DNA of 64,000 nucleotides. It comes from Candidatus Methylacidiphilum fumarolicum (GTDB lineage: Bacteria > Verrucomicrobiota > Verrucomicrobiia > Methylacidiphilales > Methylacidiphilaceae). The translations under genes and the position numbers were made by a program. This document shows, one piece after another, positions 29,348-62,965 of the stretch (the stretch's first letter is position 1; each line of letters begins with the position of its first letter). The stretch covers positions 1,302,001-1,366,000 of the forward strand of contig NZ_OX458932.1 of NCBI RefSeq assembly GCF_949774925.1. The letters run 5' to 3'. The notes beneath the pieces are model-generated. The model saw only the letters and a list, made by a program, of their open reading frames with translations, was not told the DNA's origin and did not search any database.

Positions 29348-30802
29348 CTAACGGCTCTGTGATGGAGTTTCGCGCTTCCCTGCGGTCAGTTTCACCGGAG
29401 TATGCATCGCCCCGGACTTCCAGCCCGCAGCGAGGTTCCATCCGGCCAGAGCTTCCCGCTCCACGCATGGATCGGTTCCCGTCCATTCCTTTCCGTTTCC
29501 ATCTACCTTCGGCCCCGGAAAGGCGAAGCCGTGGTCCTTCTCCCACTTCGCCAAGCCCCAGTCGAGAAGCCCGAGCGCCGAGTTCTCGTCCCGATGGCAG
29601 GACGCTCCGCATGCGCACTCATGCCACCGGTCGCCGAGGGTCTTTTCCACGACGCCGCCGCATCGGTGGCATCTCTGGCTTGGCTTCAACGTCCTCGCCT
29701 GTGCTTCCAGGTATCCGATACCAGCCTCTTCCGCTTTGTATCCGACCATCGCCCCGAAAGCTCCGAACGATGCGTCCAACATCTCTCGATTCAGCCCGGC
29801 TTTTTGCCGCACACGTTTCCCGGGCTTTTTCTGGCTGCCTCGGGCCGAAGCCGTCATCCTTTTCGGCTCCAGCTCCTCCGTGATCAACAGTCCGCTGCGT
29901 CTCACCATGGCGGCGCTCTGCTTGTGCAGGAAATCCTTCCTGACGTTCGCCACCTTGGCGTGCATCCGGGCGAGCAGCTCGTACTGCTTGCGCAACCTCT
30001 TGGAAATGCGAAATCCCTTCCGTTTCCCGTGCTTGCGGATCGCCGCCTCCATCTTGCGGGAGATCGTTCTCCCGAGCTTCCTGAGCTTCTTAAGCGCCTT
30101 GCGCAGATGGCGCGGATTGGCGACCTCAAAAACGACCGGCTCGCTCTTTCCCGGCTCCAACCTGGCGCTGGTCAGGAACCGCTCCGTGCCCAGGTCGAAA
30201 GCCTCGGCTCCACAGCCATGCTCCCGCGCCGGTCGGCAGCGCATCGTGACCGACGCATGCCATCGGCCGCCGGAAAGAAAGATCTCGCATGTCCTGGGTT
30301 CTCCGGGAGTACGGGCCTTGCCCCGGATCGGGATCTCCCCAATGCCGGAGAGACGAAGCTTCAGGTGAGCGCTTCGCTCTCTGGCGATCAGCCGCCAGTC
30401 ACCTTCGTGCTGCTTGAAGCCGAAACCGCTGAATCGCCCTGGATGCTTGAAACGCGGGAATCCCGGCTTTTCGCCTTGCCGGATGCGGCGGAAGAACGCC
30501 TGAAAGGCGAGATCCAACCTCTTGAGCGTTACCTGGGCGGATTGAGCATTGATCGAGGAGAGAAGCGCGCTGCAGGAACGGAGCTCGGTTAGCCATCGGC
30601 ACTGCTCGGCGAAACCGATGCTTCGCTTTTCCTCCTTCCACGCCCGCCTGCGCTCCTCGAGCGCCAGGTTCCAGAGGAAGCAATGGACCCAGCGAGTCCG
30701 GAAAAGCTCCTCCCGGACGGTCTTGGATGGATAGAGCCGGTAGGTGACCTTGCGCTCGACCGGGCCCAGAACGGGAAGACCAGCGGGTGATGCGTTCATC
30801 AT
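29348..30802 (-). CDS. tnpB: TnpB RNA-guided nuclease of IS200/IS605 element
   Basis: TnpB is an RNA-guided DNA nuclease, the ancestor of Cas12, that cuts sites recognised through the omega RNA from the element's end. The RuvC residues are visible when counted from the upstream TTG 30829: D212 (FDLGTERFL), E318 (LLITEELEP) and D414 (CHRDENSA). The zinc site is C387, C390, C405 and C407. I chose ATG 30802 because the decayed copy has its ATG at the same place. Length about 484 is long for TnpB. The protein is basic, and the gene is far richer in GC than the neighbours. Confidence 0.88.
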   Translation of the reverse strand: MMNASPAGLPVLGPVERKVTYRLYPSKTVREELFRTRWVHCFLWNLALEERRRAWKEEKRSIGFAEQCRWLTELRSCSALLSSINAQSAQVTLKRLDLAFQAFFRRIRQGEKPGFPRFKHPGRFSGFGFKQHEGDWRLIARERSAHLKLRLSGIGEIPIRGKARTPGEPRTCEIFLSGGRWHASVTMRCRPAREHGCGAEAFDLGTERFLTSARLEPGKSEPVVFEVANPRHLRKALKKLRKLGRTISRKMEAAIRKHGKRKGFRISKRLRKQYELLARMHAKVANVRKDFLHKQSAAMVRRSGLLITEELEPKRMTASARGSQKKPGKRVRQKAGLNREMLDASFGAFGAMVGYKAEEAGIGYLEAQARTLKPSQRCHRCGGVVEKTLGDRWHECACGASCHRDENSALGLLDWGLAKWEKDHGFAFPGPKVDGNGKEWTGTDPCVEREALAGWNLAAGWKSGAMHTPVKLTAGKRETPSQSR

Positions 30803-30850
30803 GAGGCGACGCTGGACAGTGGCCAGCAATATGGTCTATCATTTAGTGCA

Positions 30851-31267
30851 ATGATAGGTCAAGTGCGTTTGCACGTTCTGCATCACTGCGTTTACGCGCT
30901 GCACTACCATTTCGTTCTTGTCACAAAATACCGCCGCAAGGCGCTCACCCGCCCCATGCTTGACCGGTTGCGTGCTATTGCGGAAATGCGCTGGGAGGGA
31001 TGGGGCGGACAGCTGCTTGAGTGCAACGGAGAATCTGACCACGTTCACTTGCTGGTTGCGTTGCCACCAAATCTTGGACTCAGCCGCTTCGTGAACAATC
31101 TCAAGACAACTTCTTCCAGGCTTCTCCGCAGAGAGTTTGCCACAACGGTCGCCCGTTTCTATCGTAAGGCAGTTCTTTGGAGCCGTTCCTATTGCGTTAT
31201 CACGTGCGGGGGCGCCCCATTAACCGTCCTCAAACAGTACATCGAACGGCAAGAAACGCCGGAATAG
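30851..31267 (+). CDS. tnpA: TnpA Y1 HUH transposase
   Basis: This single-strand transposase cuts and joins at the element's hairpin ends. Its 138 residues are the usual size. The HUH motif is H64-V65-H66 in ESDHVHLLVALPP, and the catalytic Tyr is probably Y130 in LTVLKQYIERQ. It begins 48 bases from the tnpB start, in the opposite direction. All key residues are kept and the frame is whole, so the element may still be active. Confidence 0.9.
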   Translation: MIGQVRLHVLHHCVYALHYHFVLVTKYRRKALTRPMLDRLRAIAEMRWEGWGGQLLECNGESDHVHLLVALPPNLGLSRFVNNLKTTSSRLLRREFATTVARFYRKAVLWSRSYCVITCGGAPLTVLKQYIERQETPE

Positions 31268-31469: not shown

Positions 31470-32213
31470 CTATCTGTACCACGCATACCATTCTACTTTA
31501 AATTTCTCGTCGATTTTCCAAACATTTTCAAATTGCCATCGTACTTTTCCTTTTTCTAACCGATACCCTTTTGGATAAATAGAGAAAAAGCCCCCATAGA
31601 TCCATTGCATATAGAAAGAAGAGTTTGTTTTACCAATTGCTGGTATTGATCGAGCAATCCCTGAAAGATCAAAAGTAAATGAAATTTCATCGAATGGTGG
31701 GGAGCCACTACCAGTAACTCCAACATTGTTTATGTACTCGAAAGAATCTTTTGTAGCAGCGGTAGGCAATACAAGAAATTCAGCCTGCAAAATGGTTTTC
31801 GCTGTTTTGTTTTTAGGCCAATAGATATCCGCTGCCCAAAAATATTGACAGTTGTGTTTTGTTTTTACATAGAACCAATTCCACTGGCTGATCTGTTTTC
31901 GAATGATAGGAATAGCGATTCCATCAACCCAATATTTCATCCATAAAGCTGGAAATCTTGGGTCCTCTTCGAATATTGGAACATTTTTTTCCCAATGCTC
32001 GTAATCATGGGTATGCACCTCATATTGTTGAGTAAAAATCACATGAGCTTGTAAAGTCCCAGGTTGGTTTGGATTAGGTAAAAGAATAAGTTGAGCGTAA
32101 CTGTCCAATCGACTCTTATGAAAAGATCTTTCTAAGGTCTGCTCAAAGGCTTTGCAACAAAAACATAAAAAAAATAAAGAAATTAAAGATAGAGTCTCTT
32201 TTTGAACAATCAT
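31470..32213 (-). CDS. Exported protein of unknown function
   Basis: A hydrophobic N-terminus (residues 4-22, LSLISLFFLCFCCKAF) acts as a signal peptide. The 247-residue protein is rich in Trp, Tyr and Phe, with segments such as WNWFYVKTKHNCQYFWAADIYW, suggesting a beta-rich envelope protein. It has no family I recognise. It lies 22 bases after the gene at 32236 on the same strand and is the last of the pilus-like series, so a part in that machine is likely but not shown. Confidence 0.55.
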   Translation of the reverse strand: MIVQKETLSLISLFFLCFCCKAFEQTLERSFHKSRLDSYAQLILLPNPNQPGTLQAHVIFTQQYEVHTHDYEHWEKNVPIFEEDPRFPALWMKYWVDGIAIPIIRKQISQWNWFYVKTKHNCQYFWAADIYWPKNKTAKTILQAEFLVLPTAATKDSFEYINNVGVTGSGSPPFDEISFTFDLSGIARSIPAIGKTNSSFYMQWIYGGFFSIYPKGYRLEKGKVRWQFENVWKIDEKFKVEWYAWYR

Positions 32214-36852: not shown

Positions 36853-37026
36853 ATGAGAGGAAAAATCGGACAATTTCTCTTTGATGCAATGATGACACTT
36901 CTCATTGCTATAGCCATAGATCGATTCTGCCCAGAACCATTGCGAGGTTGGTGCAGAAACGGATGGCAGATTATAGGAAACGCTATGGAAGAAGTCGTAC
37001 ATTGGATTGGAAGGCTATTTCATTGA
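36853..37026 (+). CDS. Small hydrophobic protein (57 residues)
   Basis: The frame runs from ATG 36853 to TGA 37024-37026, product MRGKIGQFLFDAMMTLLI... with a membrane-like segment at residues 7-22 and a Trp-rich amphipathic tail. There is no clear ribosome-binding site. The last 7 bases overlap the convergent sigma-factor gene. The composition is that of a real small membrane protein, but conservation is unknown. Confidence 0.35.
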   Translation: MRGKIGQFLFDAMMTLLIAIAIDRFCPEPLRGWCRNGWQIIGNAMEEVVHWIGRLFH

Positions 37027-38003
37027 TTTTTTAAACTTTCTCTCCCCCTCCCTTTTTCTATTCCCACTAATAATCTTTTTAGAGAAAGTTTTTGACGGCA
37101 ATTAAATGCTTCTATTCCTAAAAAATACCTATCGTTTTGTATTTCCCATACTGGATAAAAATATTTTAAAACTAAAACAGATTTAATATCACTGGGCGCA
37201 TTTTCAATGATTTGAATCCACTCTTTTTTTAGTTCTTCATTATCTGAAGGCTGCTGGATACAGTTCGGTCCAGCAATAATCGTATGCAATTGATCACCCT
37301 CGTTATTGATTGGAGCATCCAAACTAACCATTACCGGATTATTGATATTGTTTTCTGTATCTTCTAAATTGAGATTATTTTGAAAAGAATTTTTCTTTTT
37401 TTGATAAGAACTAATCTGAACTGTTTTAGATTTTAATGCTTCAGAGGCAATTTCATTTTTGATCCAGTATAAAGCATAGTTTGGAAATGGATTTTGTGAA
37501 GAAGGATTGTATCTTTCTAAGGCTCTGTAAAAGCCGATAATTCCATCACTAAAGACCGCCTCTTTAATATTTAGGTTGTTCGTTTTGACAACCCTGTGGA
37601 TCAACTCAATACCGTTTACAATCAATGGTTCTGTTGCTTCAGCTAATTTTAGTCTTTTTCTTTTCCATATTGTAGCTTCCTTCCCATTGTCTTTTTCAGC
37701 TTCTTCTCTGAGGTTGTTCCACCATATGATGTTCAAGCGTAATTTATCAAGCACTGCTACTACTTTTTCATCCATGTGGTTTTTTTTGGATCGAATTAAA
37801 GAAATTAAAAAAACAACTTCTTTGGCATTTATTCTCTTTTGTCTAGAAGGTTCATGAAGATGAATAATCTTATCAATAAGAATTTTCTTTATAGATGGAA
37901 TCTGCAGTAAAGATAGTTTTTCTTCATGCAATGCCATTTGGAATTTTTTAATCGATTCCTTCCAATCTATTTCCTTTTTGACCCATTGTGCTTTATTTTT
38001 CAT
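37020..38003 (-). CDS. Sigma-70-type RNA polymerase sigma factor (region 2 clear)
   Basis: Residues about 125-200 fit sigma region 2: EPLIVNGIELIHRVV, then EAVFSDGIIGFYRALERYNP and FPNYALYWIKNEIASEALKSK. The last part stands for the -10 recognition helix. Region 4 is weak: only some helix pattern near 270-320. The N-terminal 120 residues are not part of the usual factor. It may be an alternative sigma factor for the element's own promoters. It overlaps the upstream gene at 37993 by 11 bases. Confidence 0.65.
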   Translation of the reverse strand: MKNKAQWVKKEIDWKESIKKFQMALHEEKLSLLQIPSIKKILIDKIIHLHEPSRQKRINAKEVVFLISLIRSKKNHMDEKVVAVLDKLRLNIIWWNNLREEAEKDNGKEATIWKRKRLKLAEATEPLIVNGIELIHRVVKTNNLNIKEAVFSDGIIGFYRALERYNPSSQNPFPNYALYWIKNEIASEALKSKTVQISSYQKKKNSFQNNLNLEDTENNINNPVMVSLDAPINNEGDQLHTIIAGPNCIQQPSDNEELKKEWIQIIENAPSDIKSVLVLKYFYPVWEIQNDRYFLGIEAFNCRQKLSLKRLLVGIEKGRGRESLKNQ

Positions 38004-40334: not shown

Positions 40335-40396
40335 AAAATCTTTTTTTCTTCTGTAAAAAGCGTTCGATGGCGCATAAAGAATCTTTGAAGATTCCT

Positions 40397-41744
40397 TTAT
40401 CTTTCCCTACCTCTCTTTTCCATCGATTTTCCTATAAAGTTTGGATTATAGAAGTAAAAAGGGGAGGGGTGGGCTGTTTTTTCTATCTCTTCAATGATTT
40501 TTTCTGGGTCTTTCTGCTCTACTTTTCTATTATCCCTACGGATTCTTAGCTCTTCATAGATTTTGGCAACCGTTTCTTCTACGCTGAGGGCTCTTTTTGA
40601 CTGAGAAGCTTGCTGTTCTTCTTCTTTTCTTTCTTTATCTGGCTCAGCTCTTTGCTCTGATACTTTTTCGATACCCACTCCTTGTACTGGCGGCATTGCT
40701 TTTTCTTCGGTCCTTTCCCTTTGTTTTTCCTTCTGCAGTTGTTCCTCTTCTACTGCTGCTTTTGCGGCTCTTAGGTATTCATGCTTGTAAAGAGGAGCAG
40801 GTTGAGACACTCTATCGATCAACTCTTGAGCCCTGTCCGAAGCTATTCCTCCAAAAAACCCACCCATACCCATTCCTAGCAAGCCTCCCGCTATTGTCCC
40901 TGGTCCAGGAAAGATCATCGAGCCTAGGGTTGCCCCTGCTGCCCCTCCAACACTACTTCCAATCAGTGGTAGCCCTATCCTTGCCACCGCCTTGCCTATA
41001 GCCTCTCCCCACCGGCCTGTTTCCTTCCCTTCAGTTACGGCAGCTTTTGCTTCTTCACCCACGCCTAAAACTGTTGCAAGCGGACCTAGCCAGCCTAAAA
41101 CCTTTGGAATTTTTCTTCGGGGCTTAATTTTTTGGGGATCATAATTCTTTTTTGCATATATATCCTCTTTAGCATGAAAAAGGCGAATCATGGCCTTTGT
41201 AACATCATTTATATTAAATACCATTCTTGTAGCCCTCGCCGTTGGTTGTGAAGGATCCCCAATGACTATGTGGGGATGAAGAAACTGAAGCCAAGGATAC
41301 TCAAAGGTTCTCCCCACTCCAAAGCGAGGATAGCCTTCATACCTTTCTCCTAATTTCCTCAGTTTTTCCTCAATTTTATTGTCAACATACTTGGTTTTTA
41401 TTTCATGAACTGCCTTGGGCATAAGCATAATATTTTCTCTGCCATTGAGGTTTTCTAGCAATCCTGAAAGAAACAAGGGGATGATATGATCCAATTCCCA
41501 GCCTTTGGGAGGATGATAAGTTATCTTCCCAGATGGGGTTTTCTCTACCATTTTGTCTATAGCCCTCTGGGGGATGCCTAACTTCCTTAAGTCTTCTTGA
41601 TGATAGGTATGTAGCTCTCTGAGAAGGCTTGGGCTTCAGGTTATTTTCAAAGTCCTCCCGCAGTTCTCTTGTTCTTTCTGGGCTTACTCTTTGGACCTTG
41701 CCGAGCCAAACCGCTTCCTCCCATGAAAGTTTCTTTTCACTCAT
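40397..41744 (-). pseudogene. HNH-like nuclease with glycine-rich membrane segment, split by a frameshift
   Basis: The first part (ATG 41744, MSEKKLSWEEAVWLGKVQRVS...) runs in one frame. A second frame is open from about 41625 and reads LRELHTYHQEDLRKLGIP, AIDKMVEKTPSGK, then HPPKGWELDHIIPLFLSG, NLNGRENIMLMPKAVHEIKTK. DHI plus the N and H that follow form an HNH pattern. A shift near 41620-41640 would join the parts. Alone, the second part starts at ATG 41551 with the HNH core intact. Residues about 190-245 (from 41551) are Gly-rich and membrane-like (VGGAAGATLGSMIFPGPG). The C-terminus is charged. It is 58 bases after a double SUKH gene. Confidence 0.6.
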
Positions 41745-41802
41745 TGGTCATGTCCTTTTTCTTTTCAATAGGCCATGACCTATGGGGCGGTGGCACGAAG
41801 GA

Positions 41803-42846
41803 TCACTTATTCATATAAAAAATCTCTTTTAAGAAGGAACAAAGATCAGGATATTCCTCTTTAAGATCATGAAAATAGTGATGAAGGGTAAAGAAGCAGT
41901 GGGTACTCATATCATAGGCGCACGTAATTTCTAGAAAATTCCTATGCTGTCCAAAGATGAAATAATTAGGATTAAAGAACATTTCTTTTGCTTCCTCATC
42001 GTCCCATTTTAACACCCTGTAGTAGCGATTATGAGGAATAAGAAAATCCTCATTAATAAAATAGAGCTCCTCATCATGTTCTTCGCTCTTTAGCCATTCC
42101 ACAGGAGAGTCTTCGTCAGGGATATGAAAAAAAGTGTATAAATCACTCCTGAACCCATTGCTGAAAGCCAAAAATTTCTTATAAAACTCTGGAATGGGCA
42201 CTCCAAATTCCTCGCGGAACTGTCGGTCTGCTTTTTCAATGGCTTTGAAAGAGGCCGGCGGAAGAAAGGAGGTTTCGTAGGTGTACTCAAAAGTACTCCT
42301 TATTTTTTGAATCAGCTCAATCTCCCTGGGCTCCAAAAGCCTTGGCGCCGTATAAAGATGACGGAAAAAATACTCTACTTCCTCTTTGAGTAGCGAATAG
42401 AGATCCTCATAAAACACTTTGATCCCTTCCGGGGGGATCTTTTTTATCCCCTTGGGATAAATTACCCCCAAATAACTAGGTCCCAAGTAGTATATATAAT
42501 AACGCTGGGATACCCCATCGTAGTTATATTTCCGGTCCTCACTCCTGCCTAATCGTAGGTGATACGGAGGAAGTAAGTCTGGAAAACGAGCTTTCAGCTC
42601 TGAGTTTGTGTCAAGAAGGATATCCGCACTATAAAGCCAACCATAGCCAAAACTAATGAACTTGGCATAAGCCAGAAAGTCTTTATAGTCCTGAGGTAGG
42701 GCTACCCCAAATGTCTCTTGGCAGGCTTTGTCTAACTGTTCAATAGCCTCAGGAGAGGCCGGAGGACCTAATTCGATATAAGGATGCTCTTTTTGACAGG
42801 ACTTAAGCTTTTCCAGTAAAGCTTGGAACTCTGGAGTAATTGGCAT
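41803..42846 (-). CDS. Double SMI1/KNR4 (SUKH) domain protein, probable immunity protein
   Basis: 347 residues from ATG 42846, with an AAAGGGAAATCT site ahead. Two SUKH-like domains are seen: the first with SPEAIEQLDKACQETFGVALPQDYKDFL (about 30-60), the second with SFKAIEKADRQFREEFGVPIPEFYKKFL (about 205-235). SUKH proteins are the usual immunity partners of nuclease toxins in polymorphic toxin systems. The next gene on the strand is an HNH-like nuclease, which supports this. A start further up at 42903 is possible but has a basic, odd N-terminus. Confidence 0.72.
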   Translation of the reverse strand: MPITPEFQALLEKLKSCQKEHPYIELGPPASPEAIEQLDKACQETFGVALPQDYKDFLAYAKFISFGYGWLYSADILLDTNSELKARFPDLLPPYHLRLGRSEDRKYNYDGVSQRYYIYYLGPSYLGVIYPKGIKKIPPEGIKVFYEDLYSLLKEEVEYFFRHLYTAPRLLEPREIELIQKIRSTFEYTYETSFLPPASFKAIEKADRQFREEFGVPIPEFYKKFLAFSNGFRSDLYTFFHIPDEDSPVEWLKSEEHDEELYFINEDFLIPHNRYYRVLKWDDEEAKEMFFNPNYFIFGQHRNFLEITCAYDMSTHCFFTLHHYFHDLKEEYPDLCSFLKEIFYMNK

Positions 42847-42903
42847 AGATTTCCCTTTCTTTTTTCTGTTTTTTTTATGCGCAGCACAATAAACTACCAT
42901 CAC

Positions 42904-43639
42904 TAATGACTCTTCCCTGCAATGATAACTAAAGGTGTTTTTTTTTTTTAAGCTTTGTAAGTTGTCGACGTTTTAATAGTTCCATTCTTTGGAGACTCCA
43001 CACATCAACACATTATCCTGAGTTTTTTCTCATTCCTTGCTAGGCTTTCTTTTTATAATAGGACATGTCCCATAGTTTAGTAGCAGATGCGGACGACATA
43101 GTGCTAGTACTTGCGGTTCATCTTGTGAAGAGTATATAGTAATACGATAAGTAGGGGAACAATCGAACGAAAGGAGGGCCGGGATCCACGCGCGGATATC
43201 GTTACCTTCACCAGCTAGCCCATGTTTGATGAAATTTATGTAACTTGTTGATTATCATAAGATATTTTTTCAACGTGTCACCCTGTTGGGTTTTTAGAGG
43301 CTATTTTTTTGGGTTTCCAAGGCTCTAAGAAGTTGATTCTCAGGGCAAAAAGAACTTACAAATCTCCGCTGATTCCTCTTTCCAGTTCCTCATCATCTTC
43401 CGAGGCTCTTCCTTTCAATGAAAGCTCCATAAGCCTGTCCAAGTGGGGACCTAAGAGCTCCTGTTTACTAGAAGACTTGTGATCGTCCGGTGCTTAATCT
43501 TCTCTCTATCGGAGTGACTCTCTTTCAGTCGAACCTACTGCTCTACTTTCCCACTCGGATACCGAATCGGAACAATACACACAAAACCTAAAGAGGCATA
43601 ATTCACGAAATTTATCAAATACAAGAATAATTTAGAGAT
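42904..43639. other. Gene-free region before the decayed IS copy
   Basis: About 735 bases with no coding frame. It is patchy in composition, with a GC-rich piece near 43170-43210, which suggests insertion debris. GGACATGTCC (43061-43070) is a lone 10-bp palindrome. I find nothing else that I can support. Confidence 0.4.
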
Positions 43640-44941
43640 TATCGCCCCAAAAGCTCCGAAGAGTACGTCCAACCTCTCCCAATTCCACCAGGCTTTTTGC
43701 CGAACCAGTTTCTCCGGCTTTTTCAGATTGCCTCAGGCCAAAGCCGTCATCCTTTTCGGCGCTTAGCTCTTTCCTGATCAATCGCCGCCTCCATCTTGCA
43801 GAAGATCGTTCTCCCAAGCTTCTTTAAGCTTCTTGAACGCCTTATGCGAATGCCGAGGATTGGCGCCCTCGGAAACAACCGGCTCGCTTTTTCCCCGGCT
43901 CTAACTTGGCGCTGGTAAGGAACCACTCCGTACCCAGCTCGAAAGCCTTGGCGCAAGCCCCATACTTTTGGCACTAGCTAGCAGCACATCGTTTCAGGCG
44001 CATGCTATTTGCCGCCTGAAAAAAAGATACCATCTCTCCTGAGTCCTCCGGGAGCAGGGGTCTTGTTCCTGATCGGGCTCTGCCCGCTACCAGAGGGACG
44101 AAGCTTACGGTGAGCGCTTTGGTGTCTAGCGAGAAGCCGCCAGTCGCCTTCGTGTTTTTGGAAGCCAAAGCCGCTAAATTGCCCTGTATGCTGGAAGTGG
44201 GGAAAACCGGGCTGTTTGCCTTGCCACACGCGGCGTAAGTACGCCTGGAAGGCAAGATCCACCCTCTTGAGCATTACCTGAGCAGATTCAGAATTGATCA
44301 AGGTGAGAATCCCCAGCGAGTCTGAGAATAGCTCCTCCCGAATGACCTTCAAAGGATAGAGCCGATAGGTATCCTTGCGCTCAACGGGGCCAAGTACAAG
44401 AAGACCAGCGGGTGAGGGAATCCTCATGAGGCAACGCTGGACAGTGGTCTTTTAGTGCAATGACAGGTCAAGTGCATTGACACTTTCTGCCGCACTGCGT
44501 TGACGCACTGTCCACCCATTAAGTGCTTGTAACAAAATACCGCCGAAAGGCGCTCACCAGCCCAATGCTTGCCCTTGTACGTACTATTGCGAAAATGCGC
44601 TAGGAGGAATGGGGTAGGCAGTTATTTGAATTAAGCGGAGAATCGGACCTCTTCATTTGCTGCTTGCTTTGCCACCAAATCTTGAACACAATCGCTTCGT
44701 GAAGGGTCTTAAGACGACTTTTTCCCTTCTTCTCCGCAGGATAGTATGCCATAACGGTCCCTTGTTCCTATTGTAAGCCAGTTTTTTGGAGCCGTTACTA
44801 CCGCGGTATCAGCTGATGGAAAGACTAATTAACCGTTCTCAAACAGGATATCGAACGGCAAGCGACAGTGGAATAGAACGGCTTTCCCAACTAGTCAAGC
44901 CAATGGCTCTGGCTGGAACATTGACAGCCGGAGAGGGTAGA
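43640..44941. mobile_element. Decayed IS200/IS605 copy (tnpB and tnpA remnants)
   Basis: A diverged copy of the element at 29.3-31.3 kb. The minus strand holds tnpB pieces (43640-44427) with frameshifts, a deletion of about 40 residues near the N-terminus (HCFLWNLALEERR in the intact copy is missing), and no C-terminal zinc finger or right end. The plus strand holds tnpA from about 44461 with a stop at codon 7 (GTG CAT TGA). The tnpA-side end with its hairpin is kept (to GAGAGGGTAGA 44931-44941). Confidence 0.8.
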
Positions 44942-48148: not shown

Positions 48149-50278
48149 CTATCTAGGGATAAGGTGAAGCAGAAATTGAACCCTTTTTATACTTTTTTTC
48201 CCAAACCGAGGATGAAGTTTCACAATCGCTTCTCCATCTTTAAGTCTAGAAAAGATATACGGAGGATAAATTGGCTCTTTGCGGAATTGGATTTGAAAAT
48301 CTTGATGGGCGATGGGTTTTGATAAATCAAAAAGAATTTCTTGTGTTCCTCTATACAGATAACCGTCACTTCTTTCAATTTCACCAAAAAGCCTAGAGGC
48401 ATAATCATTGGTTTCCATATGAGGGTTTCTTAGAAAAATGATCGTTGCTGTATTTGTTAGAATAGCTTCAATTTCAGATTTAATCATTCGGGATTCCAAA
48501 ACAGCTAAAGACTGAAAAGAAATAATACAACCACATTTATATTCTCTTGCCTTATCAAAAAAACCTCTTTCTCCAGTCCAATCTCCCGTGGTTGCCACTG
48601 TAGCAAATTCATCGCAGAGATAAATTACAGGTCTTTGTTGGTTAATTGGTCTGCCATCAATTTTTAGTTGCTTTCTTGAAAGGACTGACCGAAAGAAATC
48701 GAGTTTTAATAGTATGCTTGCGACCTTTGCTGCATTTCTCCATCTAGAAAAATTCATATCCAATACAAGGATCTTTCCCTGATCAATGATATCTGCAAAA
48801 TTGAGGGTTCCTTTGGGACTTACCATTCGATCAAAAGGCGGCTGAGTCATCAGTGATGTGAGAACCGAAACTGTCATACCAATGGAACCTGAGGTTCTTT
48901 CATTGGCAATGTTTAGATATTCACCTTTGAAATAAAGGTACACTTCATCTGAATAGGGATCCTTTCCATAATGATGGAGGATTTTTTCGTAGGAACTTAA
49001 CCACTTCTGCAAAGGACCATATTCTGGAGCAGGGATTTCAATATTGTTTATCAAATTAGATAAGGCCAACAATTGATCTATCTCATCAATAAGACTTAGG
49101 GAGCTTTCCCAAAGTTCAAGGTTGGGAAGAACTCCAAATTTAAAAGATTTTAAAAGTTTTTTTAGTCGATCTGTTAGTTCCGAGCACACTAAAAGAAGAT
49201 TGTTGTGAAATTCATCATTTTGAGAATAAGAAAAAAAAGCAGCACGGAAAGAACGCAAACCGTTGAATAAAGATAAAATGCTAGAAGAACCAAAATGCGC
49301 TTTCGAAGCTTGCTCACCATTTATATATTTTAAAATTTTTTCTGCTTCAATTTTTTTTAATAGTCTCTTTTCCCTCTCTACTTCATTTTCATTTTCCGGC
49401 GCATTTTTATTCGCAACATATATGTCTTTAATTTTCTTTTTCCATTCTTGGATCAGATTTTCGATCCTATTGATAAGTCGGTTGATTTTTTCCAATCCCT
49501 GAAAAACTTTCTCTTTATTCTCTCTTAAAACACTTTCTGCTGAAGATATTTGGCTTTGGTTGGCAGGCTGTCCTCGGTCCATGACAAGAAGATTAAGAAG
49601 AGGAAAAGACATTGGAGGAGGACATTCTTCAATAATCCCGTTTCGAGCAGCCATAACAAGTTCTCGATGAAGTTGAAAAATGGAGTTAAACAGTTTCCTT
49701 CCGGCAGCATCCCAGAAGGGATCTTGGCTTGTCTTCCCATCATCAACTGCTTGTTTTAAAGTAATCATTAAATCAGCAAGCTCTGATGGAAGGGAATCAG
49801 GATTATTAAATGGATCTAGAGCAAGATCATGATCAGGTCCAAAAAGCAAAACATCTTTTTCTCTATCATATTTCTTGGCAAGCCATAATAACATTTCAGT
49901 CAGTTCACATTTTCCATCCATAATAAATCCCGAAAATTTTAATTCTGCTTTTTCTTTAGAATCTCTAAGGTCAGTTGCTCTAAAAAGGCTTTCTAAAACT
50001 TGAGTCAGAACAAATCGAGTTTTCCCAGCACCAGATCCACCCAGAATGCTCATGTGTGAAAATAAGTCTTTGATTGTTAGGGGATTACCAGATTCATCGG
50101 TTAGCTCCTGTGGTTCTGTTTCAACTCGAAAATACAATTTTCCAAAATCCGAAGAACTTATTGGATGCCGTGGCCAATAATTTTCTTTGACTTTAGCAGA
50201 AAGAGATTCTCTTGGTTTTACATATTGTGGGCCTATCGATCCTACTAAACTCTCTCTGATTTTTTGGAATAGTTTCAT
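48149..50278 (-). CDS. VirD4/TraG-type coupling ATPase
   Basis: Coupling proteins bring DNA or protein cargo to a type IV secretion channel. This 709-residue ATPase has Walker A GGSGAGKT (80-87) and Walker B VIYLCDEF (about 549-556), then the FFDKAREYKCGCIISFQSL segment typical of TraD/VirD4 helicase-like domains. The usual two N-terminal membrane helices are absent. A long insert (about 200-430) with helical character is present. It begins a five-gene minus-strand operon. Confidence 0.8.
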   Translation of the reverse strand: MKLFQKIRESLVGSIGPQYVKPRESLSAKVKENYWPRHPISSSDFGKLYFRVETEPQELTDESGNPLTIKDLFSHMSILGGSGAGKTRFVLTQVLESLFRATDLRDSKEKAELKFSGFIMDGKCELTEMLLWLAKKYDREKDVLLFGPDHDLALDPFNNPDSLPSELADLMITLKQAVDDGKTSQDPFWDAAGRKLFNSIFQLHRELVMAARNGIIEECPPPMSFPLLNLLVMDRGQPANQSQISSAESVLRENKEKVFQGLEKINRLINRIENLIQEWKKKIKDIYVANKNAPENENEVEREKRLLKKIEAEKILKYINGEQASKAHFGSSSILSLFNGLRSFRAAFFSYSQNDEFHNNLLLVCSELTDRLKKLLKSFKFGVLPNLELWESSLSLIDEIDQLLALSNLINNIEIPAPEYGPLQKWLSSYEKILHHYGKDPYSDEVYLYFKGEYLNIANERTSGSIGMTVSVLTSLMTQPPFDRMVSPKGTLNFADIIDQGKILVLDMNFSRWRNAAKVASILLKLDFFRSVLSRKQLKIDGRPINQQRPVIYLCDEFATVATTGDWTGERGFFDKAREYKCGCIISFQSLAVLESRMIKSEIEAILTNTATIIFLRNPHMETNDYASRLFGEIERSDGYLYRGTQEILFDLSKPIAHQDFQIQFRKEPIYPPYIFSRLKDGEAIVKLHPRFGKKSIKRVQFLLHLIPR

Positions 50279-52163: not shown

Positions 52164-52760
52164 ATGAATGTTTTTGCTTCATTTTCATCCTCAAATCGTT
52201 TTTTTTACAACAGCGAAAAAGTCATTCAAGAAATACTCTGGGAAAACACCATCGACACATTGCCACGATTACTGCCTCCTATCCCTGCTAATCTTTTAAC
52301 TTTTGACCAATTCCCAAACAACAAAGCCATTGAATCAATTCCCGTAGAAGGAGGTTGGTTAAGCTTGTTGGTTCATCCCACTCAATGGCCAAAAGATCTT
52401 TTGCAAGTGTACTATGAGGATTTAGTTATTTTATTTTCTTGTGTAAAGTCAAAAGAAGTTCAGCAAAACAATTTACAACCTATCGCTCTCTGTCAGTATG
52501 TACAAACTTGTAAAAAAAAGAAAATGGTTCTTGAAAACAAAAATTGTCCATTTAATAGCATGGGAATTTGTGCTATTGGAACATTCCAAAATCAATCTCT
52601 TTCAGTAGAATCACTAAACCATAATTCCATAGGCTACTACTTAGGACTTACCAAGCAACAGGTTCAGTCCAAATTAAAAATTGCAACAGAATATCTAAAA
52701 AACGCTCTCAAACAAAAGAAAGCATTTTGTGAACTGCTTTCCAATCTTTCCAATAGTTGA
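52164..52760 (+). CDS. Small protein with Cys cluster and HTH-like end
   Basis: 198 residues. A cysteine group (CQYVQTC..., NKNCPFNSMGIC, about 115-140) suggests a metal site. The last 40 residues, SIGYYLGLTKQQVQSKLKIATEYLKNAL, look like a sigma region-4 or LuxR-type helix-turn-helix. If so it is a DNA-binding regulator with a metal switch, but it may be neither. It starts 42 bases from a divergent gene. Confidence 0.5.
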   Translation: MNVFASFSSSNRFFYNSEKVIQEILWENTIDTLPRLLPPIPANLLTFDQFPNNKAIESIPVEGGWLSLLVHPTQWPKDLLQVYYEDLVILFSCVKSKEVQQNNLQPIALCQYVQTCKKKKMVLENKNCPFNSMGICAIGTFQNQSLSVESLNHNSIGYYLGLTKQQVQSKLKIATEYLKNALKQKKAFCELLSNLSNS

Positions 52761-52784: not shown

Positions 52785-53486
52785 TTATCGAATCTTTTCC
52801 TGTATTTTCTTTTGTTCCAGTTGAGGATCTGAGTGGTAAATTCCTTGGATTGGCGAAGGATTTAAGCCTTCAGGATTAAAAATTGGTGCCTCTTCCTTTT
52901 CTTTTTCTAGAGACTTCTGAGTTTGTTTCCCATCAAATGCCTTCTGCCAGAATTCTTGTTGTAGAAAAGGCCCTTTTCCTATTCCAGGAATATTCCAATA
53001 GGAAGGTACGGAATGGGTTTCCGTTGTTTTTTGATAAACCGTATTATTAGCTTTTTCACCAATTCTTTTCCAATCCAAAGTGCTTAACCTTTGGTCATTT
53101 CTTTCTAGACACCTACAGGTACACATTCCATCCCATTTTTGAGGGTTTGAAGCTGAATCTATTCCTTGGTTTAGCTGTTCTTTAGCAGAAGCTCTAGTCA
53201 GACCTATCATATTGAGTGTCTGAGTATTGGATAAGGTTCCAATAGAATTCTTTGAGGTAGAGTGTTGCTGGACAGGATGTGATCTATGATCGCTTTCTTG
53301 GTTTCTGTTTGTTGTTTTGTTTGTTCTACCATCCATACTATCCGTAGGAGATAGGTTCATTGGAATATGATCAAATGATTGAACATGCGCCGAAGGCTTT
53401 TCTTCTCCCCCCTGATGTGCGGTTAATTCTACTCGTTTGTTTTGTTCGTTCATGGTATATCCTCCTTCTAAATCTTTATCGCGCAA
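52785..53486 (-). CDS. Disordered Gln/Asn-rich protein of the secretion region
   Basis: 233 residues, mostly Gln, Asn, Ser, Thr and Glu, expected to be disordered. It has a Cys pair region (MCTCRCLE, about 118-125). No family is recognised. Its start overlaps the end of the glycine-rich gene at 53476 by 11 bases, so the two are translated together. Confidence 0.45.
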   Translation of the reverse strand: MRDKDLEGGYTMNEQNKRVELTAHQGGEEKPSAHVQSFDHIPMNLSPTDSMDGRTNKTTNRNQESDHRSHPVQQHSTSKNSIGTLSNTQTLNMIGLTRASAKEQLNQGIDSASNPQKWDGMCTCRCLERNDQRLSTLDWKRIGEKANNTVYQKTTETHSVPSYWNIPGIGKGPFLQQEFWQKAFDGKQTQKSLEKEKEEAPIFNPEGLNPSPIQGIYHSDPQLEQKKIQEKIR

Positions 53487-54402
53487 TTTCTTCTTTTTTA
53501 TTTACATAGGAAAGCAGGGATCGTGTTTGAAAATTCGAATTAGGAACTGAGGAAAAGTATTCAGGTAAATAAAAATCCCTATTGATTGGATGTTGATAAT
53601 TTTGAAGCTTCGTATAAAACCTTTCAGAATTGCTTATATTTTCTATTTTCTCAGTAGGTGCTTTTAAATTTTCTACTATTTTTTCAACCTTTTCCCCAAT
53701 TCTTTCGCCCATTGAAGAGCCAACAACCCATCCGAGCCATCCACCCATGGGTTTTCCAATCAAAGGAATTCCACCAAGGACATTTTCTCCCAACTTTTCG
53801 CCTATTTTCCCAATTCCCACAGCTGACGCTCCTTTTATAGCTGCCTCACTCATATTAAACATAGCCTCATCAATTTTCCCATGCGCCAACGATTGCATGG
53901 ATCTGTAGACTCCCGGACCTGCAATTTCGGCCCCTAAAAGTGCTGCATACTTTGGACCTCCTAATCGAGTAATCGTTTTTACAACTCTTAAGAAAAAAGA
54001 ATCCGGCTTATTCATTCTTTCTTTATTTTGCAGCTGCTCCATTGCTTTTAATTGCTGTGTTTTTCCTTCATTTCCGGTAGCTATAATGGATCCTGAATTT
54101 TTAACATTTTCTTTTTCAAGAGGGACAAAAGAAAATGGTTCTTTTTTGATCTCTTCTACAATTTTATCAGGATAATTTGTTTGATTCTTTGAAAACTGGG
54201 CATAGGCTCCATATCCAGCCCCTAGTCCTAATACATTAGGTAAAACAGCAGGCATCTCTTTGAAAGTGTTTTCATCAACATTGGGAGAGGACTGATCAAG
54301 GATACTTATTTCACGAAAACTTGGACTAAGAAAGCGACCATAGAGAAGAGAAGACAATGGCATGCCTTTAGTCGCAGAAAGATGAATTTGAGGATTATTC
54401 AT
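53476..54402 (-). CDS. Protein with glycine-zipper membrane segment
   Basis: 308 residues without a signal peptide. The middle (about 160-235) is Gly/Ala-rich with GLGGPKYAALLGAEIAGPG-like and GGWLGWVVGSSMGERIGEKVEK pieces, a glycine-zipper pattern. Similar segments occur in the HNH-like protein at 40397 (VGGAAGATLGSMIFPGPG, then GMGMGGFFGG). It lies 45 bases after the PilB-type ATPase gene. It may be a secreted or membrane-inserting part of the machine; no family is named. Confidence 0.5.
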   Translation of the reverse strand: MNNPQIHLSATKGMPLSSLLYGRFLSPSFREISILDQSSPNVDENTFKEMPAVLPNVLGLGAGYGAYAQFSKNQTNYPDKIVEEIKKEPFSFVPLEKENVKNSGSIIATGNEGKTQQLKAMEQLQNKERMNKPDSFFLRVVKTITRLGGPKYAALLGAEIAGPGVYRSMQSLAHGKIDEAMFNMSEAAIKGASAVGIGKIGEKLGENVLGGIPLIGKPMGGWLGWVVGSSMGERIGEKVEKIVENLKAPTEKIENISNSERFYTKLQNYQHPINRDFYLPEYFSSVPNSNFQTRSLLSYVNKKEEIAR

Positions 54403-54447: not shown

Positions 54448-56505
54448 TCAACTGAATACGCTAGAATATGAGCGAGAAGAAAGTAGGAGCAAAGCTTCCT
54501 CTTTGGATATCACTCCTGTAAAAAAGAGCTCTGTAGCTTGAATAGCTAATGGCTTAAATCCTCTACTTTCATTATGAGCTCGTATTCGGTTAGGGCTCGC
54601 ACCATTTTCAATTAAAGAAATAATTTCACTATCGAATGGAAGAAGTTCAAGAATCGGCATCCTTCCAGCCGTCCCTGTTCCTCTACATGCTTGACAACCA
54701 CTGGCTTCTGCAACCACAGGCTCTGCAACCTGACAATTGGGAAAATATTTTAAATCATCTTTCGTGGCTTTTCTTATTTTTTTGCAATAAGGGCATAATT
54801 TTGAAACGAGCCTTTGGGAAATAACCAATTTCATAGCATAAGATACAGCAAGCCTATCAATACCAAAGCTCTGAACCATTCTTTCTATTACTCCCACTGG
54901 ATCAGTTGCATGAATAGAGGAAAATACAAGATGGCCAGTTAATGCTGAATCAATAGCAATCCGAGCACTTTCCATATCACGTATTTCCCCAATCATAATA
55001 ATATCTGGATCTTGTCGAACTATTCCTCTCAGAGCAGTGGCAAATGTAATTCCTGCTTTTTCTCTAACTTCGATTTGCATGGCATCAGGAAAATGTTTTT
55101 CAACAGGATTCTCAACGGTAATTATTTTTTTTCTAGGGGAACTAATATGCTGTAGCATAGCATAAAGAGTAGTTGTTTTTCCACTTCCTGTTGGTCCTGT
55201 GGAGACAAACATCCCCTGTCCATTCGCTAAAAACCACAAAAGAAAAGAATGCTCCATTGGCGGCAAATTCAAATCATCAAGGGTTGGAATTCTAGAAGAA
55301 AAAATACGAATGGCGGTATGCTCTTCCATCCCTTGGCCAATTACAATACTATACCTTTGGTCATAACGAATCCCTTTGTATTGATAACTGCTACTTCCAT
55401 CTTGAAATATCCCTTTTTGATCAGCAGCCATATTTCCAAAAAGCTTAATTCGGTCCAATAGAATCTGATATTGAAGTCTGCTTAAGGGAGCTTGTTCATA
55501 ATAATCCCCGTCTATTCGGAAACGCACTCGTACATTGTGTTCTTTAGGTTCTAGGGAAATATCGCTGGCTCCCATATCAATGGCACTGCTCATGATAGCA
55601 TGATAAAGAGTGATTCCTGTTTCGTTAAAATGACCTAAATCTACTTGGGGCCATTCCCTTACATGAAGAGGATCTCCTGGTAAAATTCCTTTAATTTTGT
55701 TTTCTTTTTCAACCCGAAGAAATAGTTTTTGGAAATAACCAGGAGAACAAATCACAAGCTGGATTTTTGTTTTTAGAGCTTCGATCAATTGATCTTCTAG
55801 TTTAGAATTAAAGGCTTCTGGTGTAATAACCCAAGAGCAGGTAGGTGACTTCCTCCATAAAAGAGCGTTATCAAATCCTTTTATTGCTGCACAAGCTTGC
55901 ACAGCTCCTTCTGGAATAACAATTTTTGGGTCGGAACCAAAAAGAATTTGTTCAAGAATATCAGCTACTCTTGGATACAATGAGGATTCTAACCTTAATA
56001 GTTTTAACCAACTTTCCTTATCTTCTTGCTCCCAATCAGGAAACCCTTCTACCCCTCTTTCTCTTTTTAGAAAAAGATTGGCCAAATCGCTAGGATGTAA
56101 GAGATAAAAAATTCTTGCTTTATCTTGGAAATTAATTGCGGCAAAAATTTCAACCTCATGTAAGCGAAAAGGATTGAGAATACCGATGACATAAAAAGGA
56201 CTGTCCCATAAAATTATCGCATTAAAATCTTTTTCTAACTTTTTGCCTGCAGAATAGAAAGCCGAAGGGGGCAAGGGATGATCTCTATCAGCAGGATATA
56301 GGGGTGGCCATCCATTACGATTGGTGAATGATTCTGACCACCTTTCCCATGAAAAAAGGGTAGAAAATCGTAAGATCGCTTTTTCTAGATCAAAGAATGG
56401 GTCGGATTTTCTCCATTCTTTAAGATTTTCTGCAACTATCAGCCGTTCCTTGAGAAGAAAGTTTTCAAAATCGTTTTGAATAGGAAGACAATGTTTCATT
56501 TGCAT
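54448..56505 (-). CDS. PilB/GspE-type secretion ATPase
   Basis: Assembly ATPase of the type II/IV pilus class. Walker A GPTGSGKTT is near 436-444, followed by the Asp and His boxes (ENPVEKHFPDAMQIEV, IRDMESARIA, LTGHLVFSSIHATDP). The zinc site is C571, C574, C604 and C607 (CPYC, CQAC), as in PilB and GspE rather than PilT or VirB11. The N-terminal 290 residues replace the usual MshEN domains and are not recognised. It lies divergent to the VirB-like operon, 60 bases away, and is the only assembly ATPase seen here. Confidence 0.9.
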   Translation of the reverse strand: MQMKHCLPIQNDFENFLLKERLIVAENLKEWRKSDPFFDLEKAILRFSTLFSWERWSESFTNRNGWPPLYPADRDHPLPPSAFYSAGKKLEKDFNAIILWDSPFYVIGILNPFRLHEVEIFAAINFQDKARIFYLLHPSDLANLFLKRERGVEGFPDWEQEDKESWLKLLRLESSLYPRVADILEQILFGSDPKIVIPEGAVQACAAIKGFDNALLWRKSPTCSWVITPEAFNSKLEDQLIEALKTKIQLVICSPGYFQKLFLRVEKENKIKGILPGDPLHVREWPQVDLGHFNETGITLYHAIMSSAIDMGASDISLEPKEHNVRVRFRIDGDYYEQAPLSRLQYQILLDRIKLFGNMAADQKGIFQDGSSSYQYKGIRYDQRYSIVIGQGMEEHTAIRIFSSRIPTLDDLNLPPMEHSFLLWFLANGQGMFVSTGPTGSGKTTTLYAMLQHISSPRKKIITVENPVEKHFPDAMQIEVREKAGITFATALRGIVRQDPDIIMIGEIRDMESARIAIDSALTGHLVFSSIHATDPVGVIERMVQSFGIDRLAVSYAMKLVISQRLVSKLCPYCKKIRKATKDDLKYFPNCQVAEPVVAEASGCQACRGTGTAGRMPILELLPFDSEIISLIENGASPNRIRAHNESRGFKPLAIQATELFFTGVISKEEALLLLSSRSYSSVFS

Positions 56506-57354: not shown

Positions 57355-58322
57355 AAAGAAAACTGTTTGTCTTTTTGATGCTACTGTTTGTCTCCATTGC
57401 TAGAGGGCAACAAATCGATCCGCTTGACTCTAGGAATGCTCTCAATACATCGTTTCAGAACGGAAACATAAATTCAAATTCTTCACCTCAAATTGCAGAA
57501 GAAGATGCCCCACCTGTTATTATCAATGGTAAAAAGGCAGAAGAATTATCAGAAGATGAACTGCTTCAGTTTCTTCAACAAAAAGTTAGAATGATTCATC
57601 AGGAAGACGGTCAGGTAGAAATTCTTCGAATTTCTCCAGGATATCCACTAGCCATAGAATTTTCAGAGCCAATAGTTGGATGGGAGATTGGAGATGGTAA
57701 ATTGATTCATATAAGCAAACAGGGTGCAAAACTAATACTAAGATCTCTCGATACTACGGGTGATACATCTCTTTTAGTTTTTTTCCAAGGAAACAGAACG
57801 AGAATTTATCATATTTTTGTAGAATCAGATTTTCAAAAGGCATTGAGCCTTATTCGAGTTAGCCCCTTTAGTAAAAACAGTTCTTTAATGCCCACACAGC
57901 TTGTTGCTTATTCCATAGGAACAGATGAAGATATCTCTTCAGTCAAAAGTGTGGCTCAAATTATCGCTAACTATGATCTTTTGGTTAGAGAAGGTTCTTT
58001 AAAGCCGATGGATGTGAGCAGAATAGCAATATTTAAACGCTCAAAACTTACTGGTTTTGATTATTATTATCTTTACAGATTTTCTTCTGGTCTATTAGCG
58101 ATTTCGTTCGCATGGAAAAATCTTTATCCATATCGTGTAAGGCTAGATGAGTCGACTTTAAGGGTCGCAATTGGGCAAAGTCGCTTTATACCCGATTACG
58201 TATCGTTAAATAAGTTAATAGTACCTCCTGGAGGCATGACCAGCGGCTTTTTGATTATCTCTAATCCTCCGTATTCTCCAGATCAACCTTTTTCTTTAAT
58301 CTGGAAAGAAAGTAAAAAATGA
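57351..58322 (+). CDS. VirB9/TraK-like exported protein
   Basis: Signal peptide at 1-19 (RKLFVFLMLLFVSIARG). The N-terminal domain (about 90-165) reads EILRISPGYPLAIEFSEPIVGWEIGD and later LDTTGDTSLLVFFQGNRTRIYHIFV, the pattern of VirB9/TraK-type proteins, where a predicted beta-domain is followed by a C-terminal one. VirB9 forms the outer-membrane core with VirB7 and VirB10. It is coupled by 4-base overlaps to the genes on both sides, ATGA at 57351 and 58319. Confidence 0.6.
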   Translation: MKRKLFVFLMLLFVSIARGQQIDPLDSRNALNTSFQNGNINSNSSPQIAEEDAPPVIINGKKAEELSEDELLQFLQQKVRMIHQEDGQVEILRISPGYPLAIEFSEPIVGWEIGDGKLIHISKQGAKLILRSLDTTGDTSLLVFFQGNRTRIYHIFVESDFQKALSLIRVSPFSKNSSLMPTQLVAYSIGTDEDISSVKSVAQIIANYDLLVREGSLKPMDVSRIAIFKRSKLTGFDYYYLYRFSSGLLAISFAWKNLYPYRVRLDESTLRVAIGQSRFIPDYVSLNKLIVPPGGMTSGFLIISNPPYSPDQPFSLIWKESKK

Positions 58323-59521
58323 AAAAGTTTCTTAAAAATAAATTTTTTCTAACCATTATAGGCATTTTATCTGTGGCCACTTTCTATTATATCAACCCCA
58401 TTCATCTTGCCTCAGAGTTGATGTATGGGATTATTGAGTCTGCTAGGTATACCTATTTTAGAGGACAAGCTCTACCTTTAGGTTCAGAAAAAAAGATAAA
58501 GAGTGAGGCTCAAGAACAAAGGAAGAACATCATTGTTCAAAAAGGGGAGAAATCCAAGCTAAAGGCGGTTATTCCCGAAGAAATTGTACAGGCTAAAGAA
58601 AATATTCCAGAACCAACCCTTCCTCCTACCCAAGTTAAAGCCCCTCCAACTTCTAAAGACAAAAGTTCCCTTGGAGTTTTAGAACAACAACCTCCTAACA
58701 GACTTGCTCCTGTTCCTCGCGGTATAGTCGATCAGAAAGCCTTAGCTAGGGATTCTCAAGCTTCAGATCAACCAGTGATCATAAAATGGGCTAGAAAAAG
58801 ATATCTTTTCCGAAATCTTTCTCTTTCAGCCCTTGAAACTAATGGAACTGAGGATAAAGGAGGCTCCGAAGGACCATTTGCAAATATTGATATTAATTCG
58901 TTCTCACCACAAGGCGAGATGATAGAAGCAGCCTTGGTAAATTCTGCATTTAGTTCTAACACAGATGTCGATGTTGTTGGGGCAGTTTGGCTTCCCTTTT
59001 ACTTTCAAGGGAATCTTCTTCTTGAGCCTGGTGATCGATTGATCGGCACTTCAGCCGGAGGTACAGCGTTAAGAGATAGAATGATGGTCCATATTGACAA
59101 AATTATCTTTAAAGACGGTAGATCATTACCAATTCAAGGAGTCGCTCTCCATACTGATGGAACAGAAGGAATCAAAGGATACAGAGTTAGTGAATATGGC
59201 AAACAACTTTTAGGACCAATTTTAGCAGCCATGGGACAAGCTTTTCTCTACGCCATGGAATATCAATCCTTTAACTATTATATGTCTCCATATGGACTCA
59301 CTCCTTGGGGTCTTTATGGGCAGCCAGCTTACAATGGGGCAAAACAGGCAATGATGTTGGGTGGAATGTATGCAGGAACTAACGCGATGCAACAGATTAT
59401 GAACATTCTTGCTCAAGATATTGAGCAATATAAGCCTTATGTTTTTGTGCCAGCAGGAACTAGATTTAGGGTTTTTTTGAAGAGTTACATGGATATTTCA
59501 AAAGCTGATTATGGAAGATGA
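58319..59521 (+). CDS. VirB10/TrbI-like channel protein
   Basis: VirB10 spans both membranes of the type IV channel. The protein has an N-terminal helix (about 8-26), a proline-rich linker (about 90-125), and the C-terminal VirB10 domain: LLLEPGDRLIGTSAGG, RMMVHIDKIIFKDGRSLPI then QGVALHTDGTEGIKGY, ending in YKPYVFVPAGTRFRVFL. The GTS and RSLPIQGV stretches are typical of the family. It follows the VirB9-like gene by a 4-base overlap. Confidence 0.8.
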   Translation: MKKFLKNKFFLTIIGILSVATFYYINPIHLASELMYGIIESARYTYFRGQALPLGSEKKIKSEAQEQRKNIIVQKGEKSKLKAVIPEEIVQAKENIPEPTLPPTQVKAPPTSKDKSSLGVLEQQPPNRLAPVPRGIVDQKALARDSQASDQPVIIKWARKRYLFRNLSLSALETNGTEDKGGSEGPFANIDINSFSPQGEMIEAALVNSAFSSNTDVDVVGAVWLPFYFQGNLLLEPGDRLIGTSAGGTALRDRMMVHIDKIIFKDGRSLPIQGVALHTDGTEGIKGYRVSEYGKQLLGPILAAMGQAFLYAMEYQSFNYYMSPYGLTPWGLYGQPAYNGAKQAMMLGGMYAGTNAMQQIMNILAQDIEQYKPYVFVPAGTRFRVFLKSYMDISKADYGR

Positions 59522-62871: not shown

Positions 62872-62932
62872 GATAGTAGTTGGGTATAACCATTGTAAAT
62901 TAGCATAGATTCTCGGCAAGAATAAAATATAA

Positions 62933-62965
62933 TTGTAACAATATTGTAACATTTCTGTAACATTT
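62933..62965. promoter_or_regulatory. Three 11-bp direct repeats, operator candidate
   Basis: TTGTAACA occurs at 62933 and 62944 and CTGTAACA at 62955, each step exactly 11 bases, one turn of the helix. The sites lie between the divergent sigma-parB operon and the gene at 63111, and 62 bases ahead of the sigma start. They fit a binding site for ParB or another regulator. Confidence 0.6.

Follow-up and report, generated by a model that had tools for sequence, protein, structure and literature searches.

A review of bacteria-killing type IV secretion systems (T4SSs) treats the Xanthomonadales along with other proteobacteria; searched by term, its text returned no mention of the Verrucomicrobia (PMC6536674). 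According to parts of the same review, the effector and immunity proteins of the Xanthomonadales (X-Tfe/X-Tfi) combine a variable N-terminus with a constant C-terminal signal, the immunity gene usually lies upstream of the effector gene, some pairs sit in the T4SS locus and others are dispersed, and broken copies occur (PMC6536674). A second point of comparison is provided by the polymorphic toxin systems, for which excerpts of the source describe HNH nucleases (Tox-HNH) that adjoin SUKH immunity proteins (Imm-SUKH), standalone toxin-immunity cassettes and proteins with tandem SUKH domains (PMC3482391).

The DNA analyzed here (the window) is a stretch of 64,000 nucleotides from Candidatus Methylacidiphilum fumarolicum (NZ_OX458932.1, positions 1,302,001 to 1,366,000), the genome of which (G000) is one contig of 2,476,671 bases. 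Judged from the sequence, the window probably contains one member of a family of effector/immunity pairs, the effectors of which would be antibacterial DNases serving the resident chromosomal T4SS; the toxin gene of this copy is broken. The pairs of the Methylacidiphilaceae follow the X-Tfe/X-Tfi plan of a variable N-terminus and a constant C-terminus, with an upstream immunity gene, pairs both inside the T4SS locus and dispersed, and broken copies. They differ from X-Tfe/X-Tfi in belonging to another phylum, in C-termini that vary between genera, in SUKH immunity, in tandem displaced modules, and in toxins without an XVIPCD (no Pfam match at E 1 for the window protein or at 0.1 for its relatives). 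Further, the genes profiled (VirD4-, VirB4-, VirB10- and ATPase-type) do not mark the T4SS as an X-T4SS, a type with all 12 class A subunits encoded on the chromosome and a VirB7 that has an N0 domain. The best reading of this comparison is that the pairs would work like the Xanthomonadales effector/immunity system without being members of that family. Like the polymorphic toxins, they place an HNH nuclease beside SUKH and include standalone cassettes, but the classical layout, with a C-terminal toxin domain and an N-terminal delivery part, is not the one found here: the toxin domain is N-terminal, the SUKH gene lies upstream, and the cassettes precede the full-length gene.

The pair in the window is genuine, with an intact double-SUKH gene followed 58 nt downstream by an HNH gene. 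Its features are:

41803..42846 (-): double-SUKH (SMI1/KNR4) gene, intact, 347 aa from the ATG at 42846; putative immunity protein
41403..41744 (-): 5' piece of the toxin gene, which begins at the true start MSEKKLSW..., stays in frame for about 40 codons and then leaves it
41630..41634 (-): frameshift site, one extra C relative to the intact copy at 818 kb
40397..41551 (-): remainder of the toxin gene, 384 aa, with HNH core, glycine-zipper middle and charged C-terminus
41390..41491 (-): HNH core, DHIIPL...N...H..KTK
40850..40963 (-): glycine-zipper-like segment (384-aa ORF, residues 197-234), with a Pfam score well under the cut-off
40400..40636 (-): charged C-terminal part of the toxin, the proposed address
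40356..40375 (+): 20-bp sequence 3' of the toxin stop

The double-SUKH frame is open from a GTG at 42903, upstream of the ATG. The first-pass annotation had described two SUKH regions in this protein, and the profile search agrees: residues 209-315 match PF09346 (34.4 bits, cut-off 25.4, E 3.9e-8), which places the protein in the SMI1_KNR4/SUKH superfamily, and for the first domain the sole profile support is a set of SUKH_5/SUKH_6 matches below cut-off at residues 40-84. The same annotation had overlooked a frameshift in the toxin gene. Near 41631 the window reads AAGCCCAAG where the intact paralogue reads AAGCCAAG, and the extra C splits the HNH gene into ORFs at 41403-41744, which matches residues 1-43 of the intact paralogue, and at 40397-41551, the frame of which is open from 41635. 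The HNH-like core and the glycine-rich stretch do lie in the latter ORF, but the gene does not start at 41551; the reported spacing of 58 bases holds to the true start at 41744, while the distance to 41551 is 251. A truncated third copy in the genome carries the same extra base, which argues against a sequencing error. The SUKH gene of the window, being intact, may still guard against the toxin.

The 20-bp sequence also occurs 3' of the 818-kb copy (L004:8422) and of an array in G010 (L046:5905; 2 mismatches), and G010 and G011 carry it as well at the T4SS site that has no toxin (L071:17098; L074:5225). It was initially read as the end of a mobile element, a reading that was dropped as the sequence has two copies in the genome and occurs in toxin-free sites as well; a hairpin test of the region was weak (z -1.8). 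ORFs of the window at 29348-31267 and 43632-44427 are presumably IS605-type TnpB and TnpA genes and, beside the pair, TnpB fragments.

The toxins are presumed to be DNA-cutting nucleases on the basis of their N-terminal domain. All 10 sequences of an alignment that spans two genera keep the H-N-H triad (H86, N104 and H113), so that the loss of these residues, which the first-pass annotation had named as grounds for doubt, was looked for and not found there; ten columns of that alignment are invariant in all, including P89 and G94 alongside the triad. Outside the ten-sequence alignment, a short orphan module in G010 (L046:8791-9348) has R in place of the second H (H113). The N-terminal domains of the two genera are homologous over 103 columns (hhalign 95%, E 3.8e-8). 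The profile search that had been suggested for both proteins matched the SUKH protein but no Pfam or NCBIfam HNH model to the window protein, nor to the intact paralogue; HNH_2 matches below cut-off were obtained for a G006 member (8.7e-4) and a G005 member (0.045). Sequence searches against solved structures gave no usable match, and single-sequence AlphaFold2 models had very low confidence for both the HNH region (mean pLDDT 41) and the SUKH protein alone (pLDDT 39), values too low to bear on the beta-beta-alpha-metal fold of HNH nucleases or on binding. Matches of the toxin in PHROGs were confined to the glycine-rich middle and were attributed to its composition. A scan of viral contigs returned nine ordinary phage HNH proteins with the DHIIPLF..N..H..KT frame, and thus with the same core as the toxins; these phage endonucleases differ in having cysteine pairs, which the toxins do not, in a length of about 100-120 aa, and in having no SUKH neighbor in the nine loci scanned. 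A homing-nuclease reading was set aside because the SUKH partner is constant.

The pairs are a small, fast-evolving family. Relatives of the HNH protein occur in 6 of 13 genomes of the Methylacidiphilaceae, across all three genera, and all 4 genomes with a match in a sample of 387 from the phylum belong to this family, with no relatives outside it in that sample. Neither the toxin nor the SUKH protein had a match among 72,556 plasmid records, and a scan of genome contigs confirmed 0 of 64 candidate stretches, a scan from which records near the source genome may be left out. The 17 HNH copies are distributed over G000 (3), G010 (2), G009 (5), G005 (3), G006 (3) and G012 (1). A SUKH gene, intact or as a remnant, lies directly upstream in 15 of the 17, the exceptions being the truncated third copy of G000 and a degenerate fragment in G012; homologues of the two genes together elsewhere, on the lack of which the first-pass pairing could have foundered, therefore exist as both paralogous and orthologous pairs with the order kept. 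In the source genome, the second copy (818461-820952) has 95% DNA identity to that of the window and encodes an intact toxin of 446 aa that starts MSEKKLSW, and the third adjoins it. Intact full-length toxins are found in G000 (818 kb), G010, G009 and G005; two G006 toxins change frame downstream of the HNH domain.

SUKH genes also occur without such a toxin, in G010 (L047), as single-domain genes in G012 (L067, L068) and as broken stretches in G000 (L051). The G010 orphan is a double-SUKH gene of 400 aa (L047:6172-7374, (-)) beside a long membrane protein gene, and it also adjoins a homologue of the T4SS-locus gene at 31470-32213 of the window. To the left of the window, a remnant of the toxin middle region with stops (G000:C1:1300516-1300932; L050 6559-6790) occupies the position of the intact G010 array, between the xerC region and a transaldolase-like gene. 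Three pairs of the second genus show a likeness between the two partners, in that the toxin begins with ~48 residues similar to the N-terminus of the SUKH protein encoded beside it (37-41%, E 5e-5 to 1e-6; L061:6048 versus 7215, L063:6213 versus 7377 and L066:1700 versus 2864, all (-)). This likeness looks like duplicated 5' ends and possibly marks a site of module exchange.

Within genomes, the variable part of the toxin is the HNH part. Identity between copies in G000 is 71.7% in the HNH part versus 97.9% in the middle and tail, and the corresponding values are 80.6 versus 94.8% for two long G009 toxins and 80.0 versus 96.1% for two G005 toxins. Directly after the HNH core, G000 has a block of 25 codons with 21% identity. 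The dN/dS in G000 is 1.35 for the HNH part versus 0.14 for the rest (Fisher on N:S, p 3.7e-5); the contrast is weaker in G009 (0.56 versus 0.24, p 0.009), and G005 has no N:S contrast between the two parts (p 0.77). The first half of the SUKH protein is likewise less similar than the second in G000 (92.6 versus 99.5% identity), a contrast that is absent in G009 and G005. This faster divergence of the N-terminal domain, together with the conserved pairing, supports, on comparative grounds, the toxin-immunity function that the first-pass annotation had proposed. The HNH domain is N-terminal in all full-length members. HNH alleles vary on a constant tail, but no domain other than HNH was found on that tail, where a classical polymorphic toxin would exchange toxin domains of different folds on its delivery part; from one genus to the other, the C-terminal parts are unrelated.

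Displaced modules accompany the full-length genes. In transcription order, an array in G009 reads SUKH, short HNH, SUKH, short HNH, SUKH, full-length toxin, and short HNH modules also lie upstream of the full gene in a second G009 locus, in G010 and at the 818-kb locus of G000. Orphan modules of CDI and Rhs systems have a comparable layout, in which displaced fragments of the toxin, each accompanied by its immunity gene, stand in tandem next to one full-length toxin gene. The arrays described here mirror it, with the modules upstream and the constant part at the C-terminus.

The pair of the window lies in a T4SS locus, the VirB4 gene of which is just outside the window. The components referred to here are:

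48149..50278 (-): VirD4/TraD-type coupling ATPase (PF02534, 1.2e-10)
52785..53453 (-): T4SS-locus protein B, the last ~145 residues of which recur in the G009 full-length toxins
53476..54402 (-): T4SS-locus protein A, glycine-rich
54448..56505 (-): T2SSE/VirB11-type ATPase (PF00437, 2.6e-84)
58319..59521 (+): VirB10/TrbI-type T4SS protein (PF03743, 4.3e-19)

VirB4 is present in 12 of 13 Methylacidiphilaceae genomes, among them the six that have the toxins, and the locus is collinear in G008, G010, G011 and the compared part of G009. The label 'element-borne', given to the pair in the first-pass annotation, is not supported, given this collinearity in four other genomes of the genus over the stretches compared. 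Between the MoxR-like gene and the 622-aa gene there is no pair in G008, G010 and G011, where the T4SS is intact. No relaxase of PF03432 or PF08751 was detected in five genomes of the genus, and PF07514 gave matches below cut-off only; a relaxase of the families searched (PF03432, PF08751) and a patchy T4SS, as expected for an integrative conjugative element, are thus both missing. The T4SS is present in G008 and G011 without the toxin family, and it must therefore have another role or other effectors. The locus also contains two sigma-factor-like genes and a ParB-like gene, as we take the ORFs at 37020-38003, 60380-61975 and 61975-62952 (-) to be. They are kept across the genus and are odd partners for a protein-delivering T4SS.

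Paired homologues in other secretion regions had been suggested as worth searching for. Three of the 11 pair loci lie inside the T4SS locus, at three different positions:

Pair 1: the window, 40.4-42.8 kb
Pair 2: G009, between the homologue of 52164-52760 and protein B
Pair 3: G005 contig 191, beside VirD4

The binomial chance of 3 in 11 is about 0.001-0.002, with the loci treated as independent and a target of 45-60 kb assumed. Five of the remaining eight are clearly elsewhere on one-contig chromosomes, and the three G006 loci are outside the T4SS stretch compared. A second link is the tail of the G009 full-length toxins, which matches protein B over ~145 residues (hhalign 100%, E 7e-53) and, inside that locus, at 94.7% DNA identity over 431 bp; the protein B tail is also found on toxins at L049, outside the T4SS region. 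The array at L048:5883-13014 (-) in G009 stands between protein B and its usual downstream neighbor, with the B tail duplicated at both ends, as would be left by a single-crossover integration through that tail. No similarity to protein B was detected for the window-type tail, and neither genus has C-terminal parts related to those of the other; the tails therefore do not demonstrate a secretion signal in common. A comparison of the toxin middle with the glycine-rich protein A gave no clear sign either way of a relation, and a C-terminal arginine is not discriminating as a signal (10 of the 52 listed ORFs of the window end in R). Delivery by the secretion system, raised as one option in the first-pass annotation, gains support from the three placements and from the T4SS-locus tail on the toxins of one congener. 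The reading preferred here is that the resident T4SS would deliver the toxins; element maintenance is not supported.

The alternative with most in its favor accepts a real HNH toxin and SUKH immunity but assigns release to another export route or to lysis, the T4SS locus being merely tolerant of insertions. Most of the loci are not placed in the T4SS locus, the window-type toxins have no tail in common with T4SS proteins, and excerpts of the source on polymorphic toxins describe T2SS, T5SS and T7SS export of HNH toxins that have SUKH immunity (PMC3482391). We nevertheless regard this explanation as unlikely, though worth serious attention: three separate placements of pairs fall in one ~45-kb locus of a ~2.4-Mb genome, the protein B tail is fused to toxins even at L049, and the toxins have their constant part at the C-terminus, where T4SS substrates require it, unlike the N-terminal delivery parts of polymorphic toxins. 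A role in defense, with the HNH nuclease attacking phage or other incoming DNA and SUKH restraining it, would be compatible with an HNH core that resembles phage and restriction-type HNH proteins and with products in which, by reading, no N-terminal export signal is visible. The glycine-zipper middle and the variability of the HNH part within a genome fit a secreted toxin better, and the tandem short modules and the fusion with a T4SS-locus tail also speak against defense, which is very unlikely.

That the pair helps to keep a mobile element in its host, a second option of the first-pass annotation, is slightly less probable again. The region does encode a T4SS with VirD4, VirB10 and VirB4, and ORFs that we assume to be transposon-like lie beside the pair. 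Addiction was rejected because the T4SS is conserved, being collinear and core in the genus and chromosomal, because relaxases of PF03432 and PF08751 are missing, and because the pair is absent from plasmids; three congeners also have the toxin-free site with an intact T4SS, and 8 of the 11 pair loci are not placed in the T4SS locus. Lowest in probability, and hardly to be expected, is a decaying relic without present function, a broken toxin left beside an intact SUKH gene. The look of decay is there in the frameshifted window copy, in the truncation of the third copy, in the remnants at G000:1300516 and in the G006 toxins that change frame, but full-length toxins are intact in G000 (818 kb), G010, G009 and G005, dN/dS exceeds 1 in G000 in the HNH part only with the rest constrained at 0.14, and the intact SUKH of the window may retain a protective role.

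Delivery of DNase effectors by the T4SS, with SUKH proteins blocking them, is proposed because the anatomy of the pairs matches that of the Xanthomonadales T4SS effectors. The toxin would consist of three parts: a variable N-terminal HNH nuclease, a glycine zipper in the middle, and a charged, nearly constant C-terminal end by which it would be directed to the VirD4-type ATPase. In the producer and in sibling cells, the double-SUKH protein encoded just upstream would bind and block the HNH domain. On contact, the T4SS would transfer the toxin into a neighboring cell, where the nuclease would cut the DNA unless a matching SUKH protein were present. The sequences themselves show the order of the genes, the conserved HNH residues, variable N-termini on constant C-termini within genomes, the placements in the T4SS locus and the T4SS-locus tail fused to the toxins of one congener; that the toxins act as nucleases, are bound by SUKH, are secreted and are aimed at bacteria, and what the zipper does, we infer. 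A bolder version of this proposal, which we put forward tentatively and hold to be possible rather than probable, is a polymorphic toxin system built back to front: a variable nuclease at the N-terminus, a constant T4SS address at the C-terminus, an upstream immunity gene and displaced modules upstream of the expressed gene would together serve a core, apparently non-conjugative, bacteria-killing T4SS in the Verrucomicrobiota, and one congener would have acquired the address through recombination in the 3' end of the gene, with a T4SS-locus protein as the donor.

A literature search returned no report of such a system in the Methylacidiphilaceae, and two papers on Methylacidiphilum genomes, searched by term, mention neither secretion nor toxin (PMC6688271, PMC4210602). 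If the proposed delivery is true, T4SS-mediated killing would be extended to another phylum and the shuffling of modules would be shown at the other end of a toxin. Natural pairs of paralogues would then be at hand for mapping the specificity between toxin and immunity protein, and the otherwise unexplained core T4SS of these thermoacidophilic methanotrophs would have a role.
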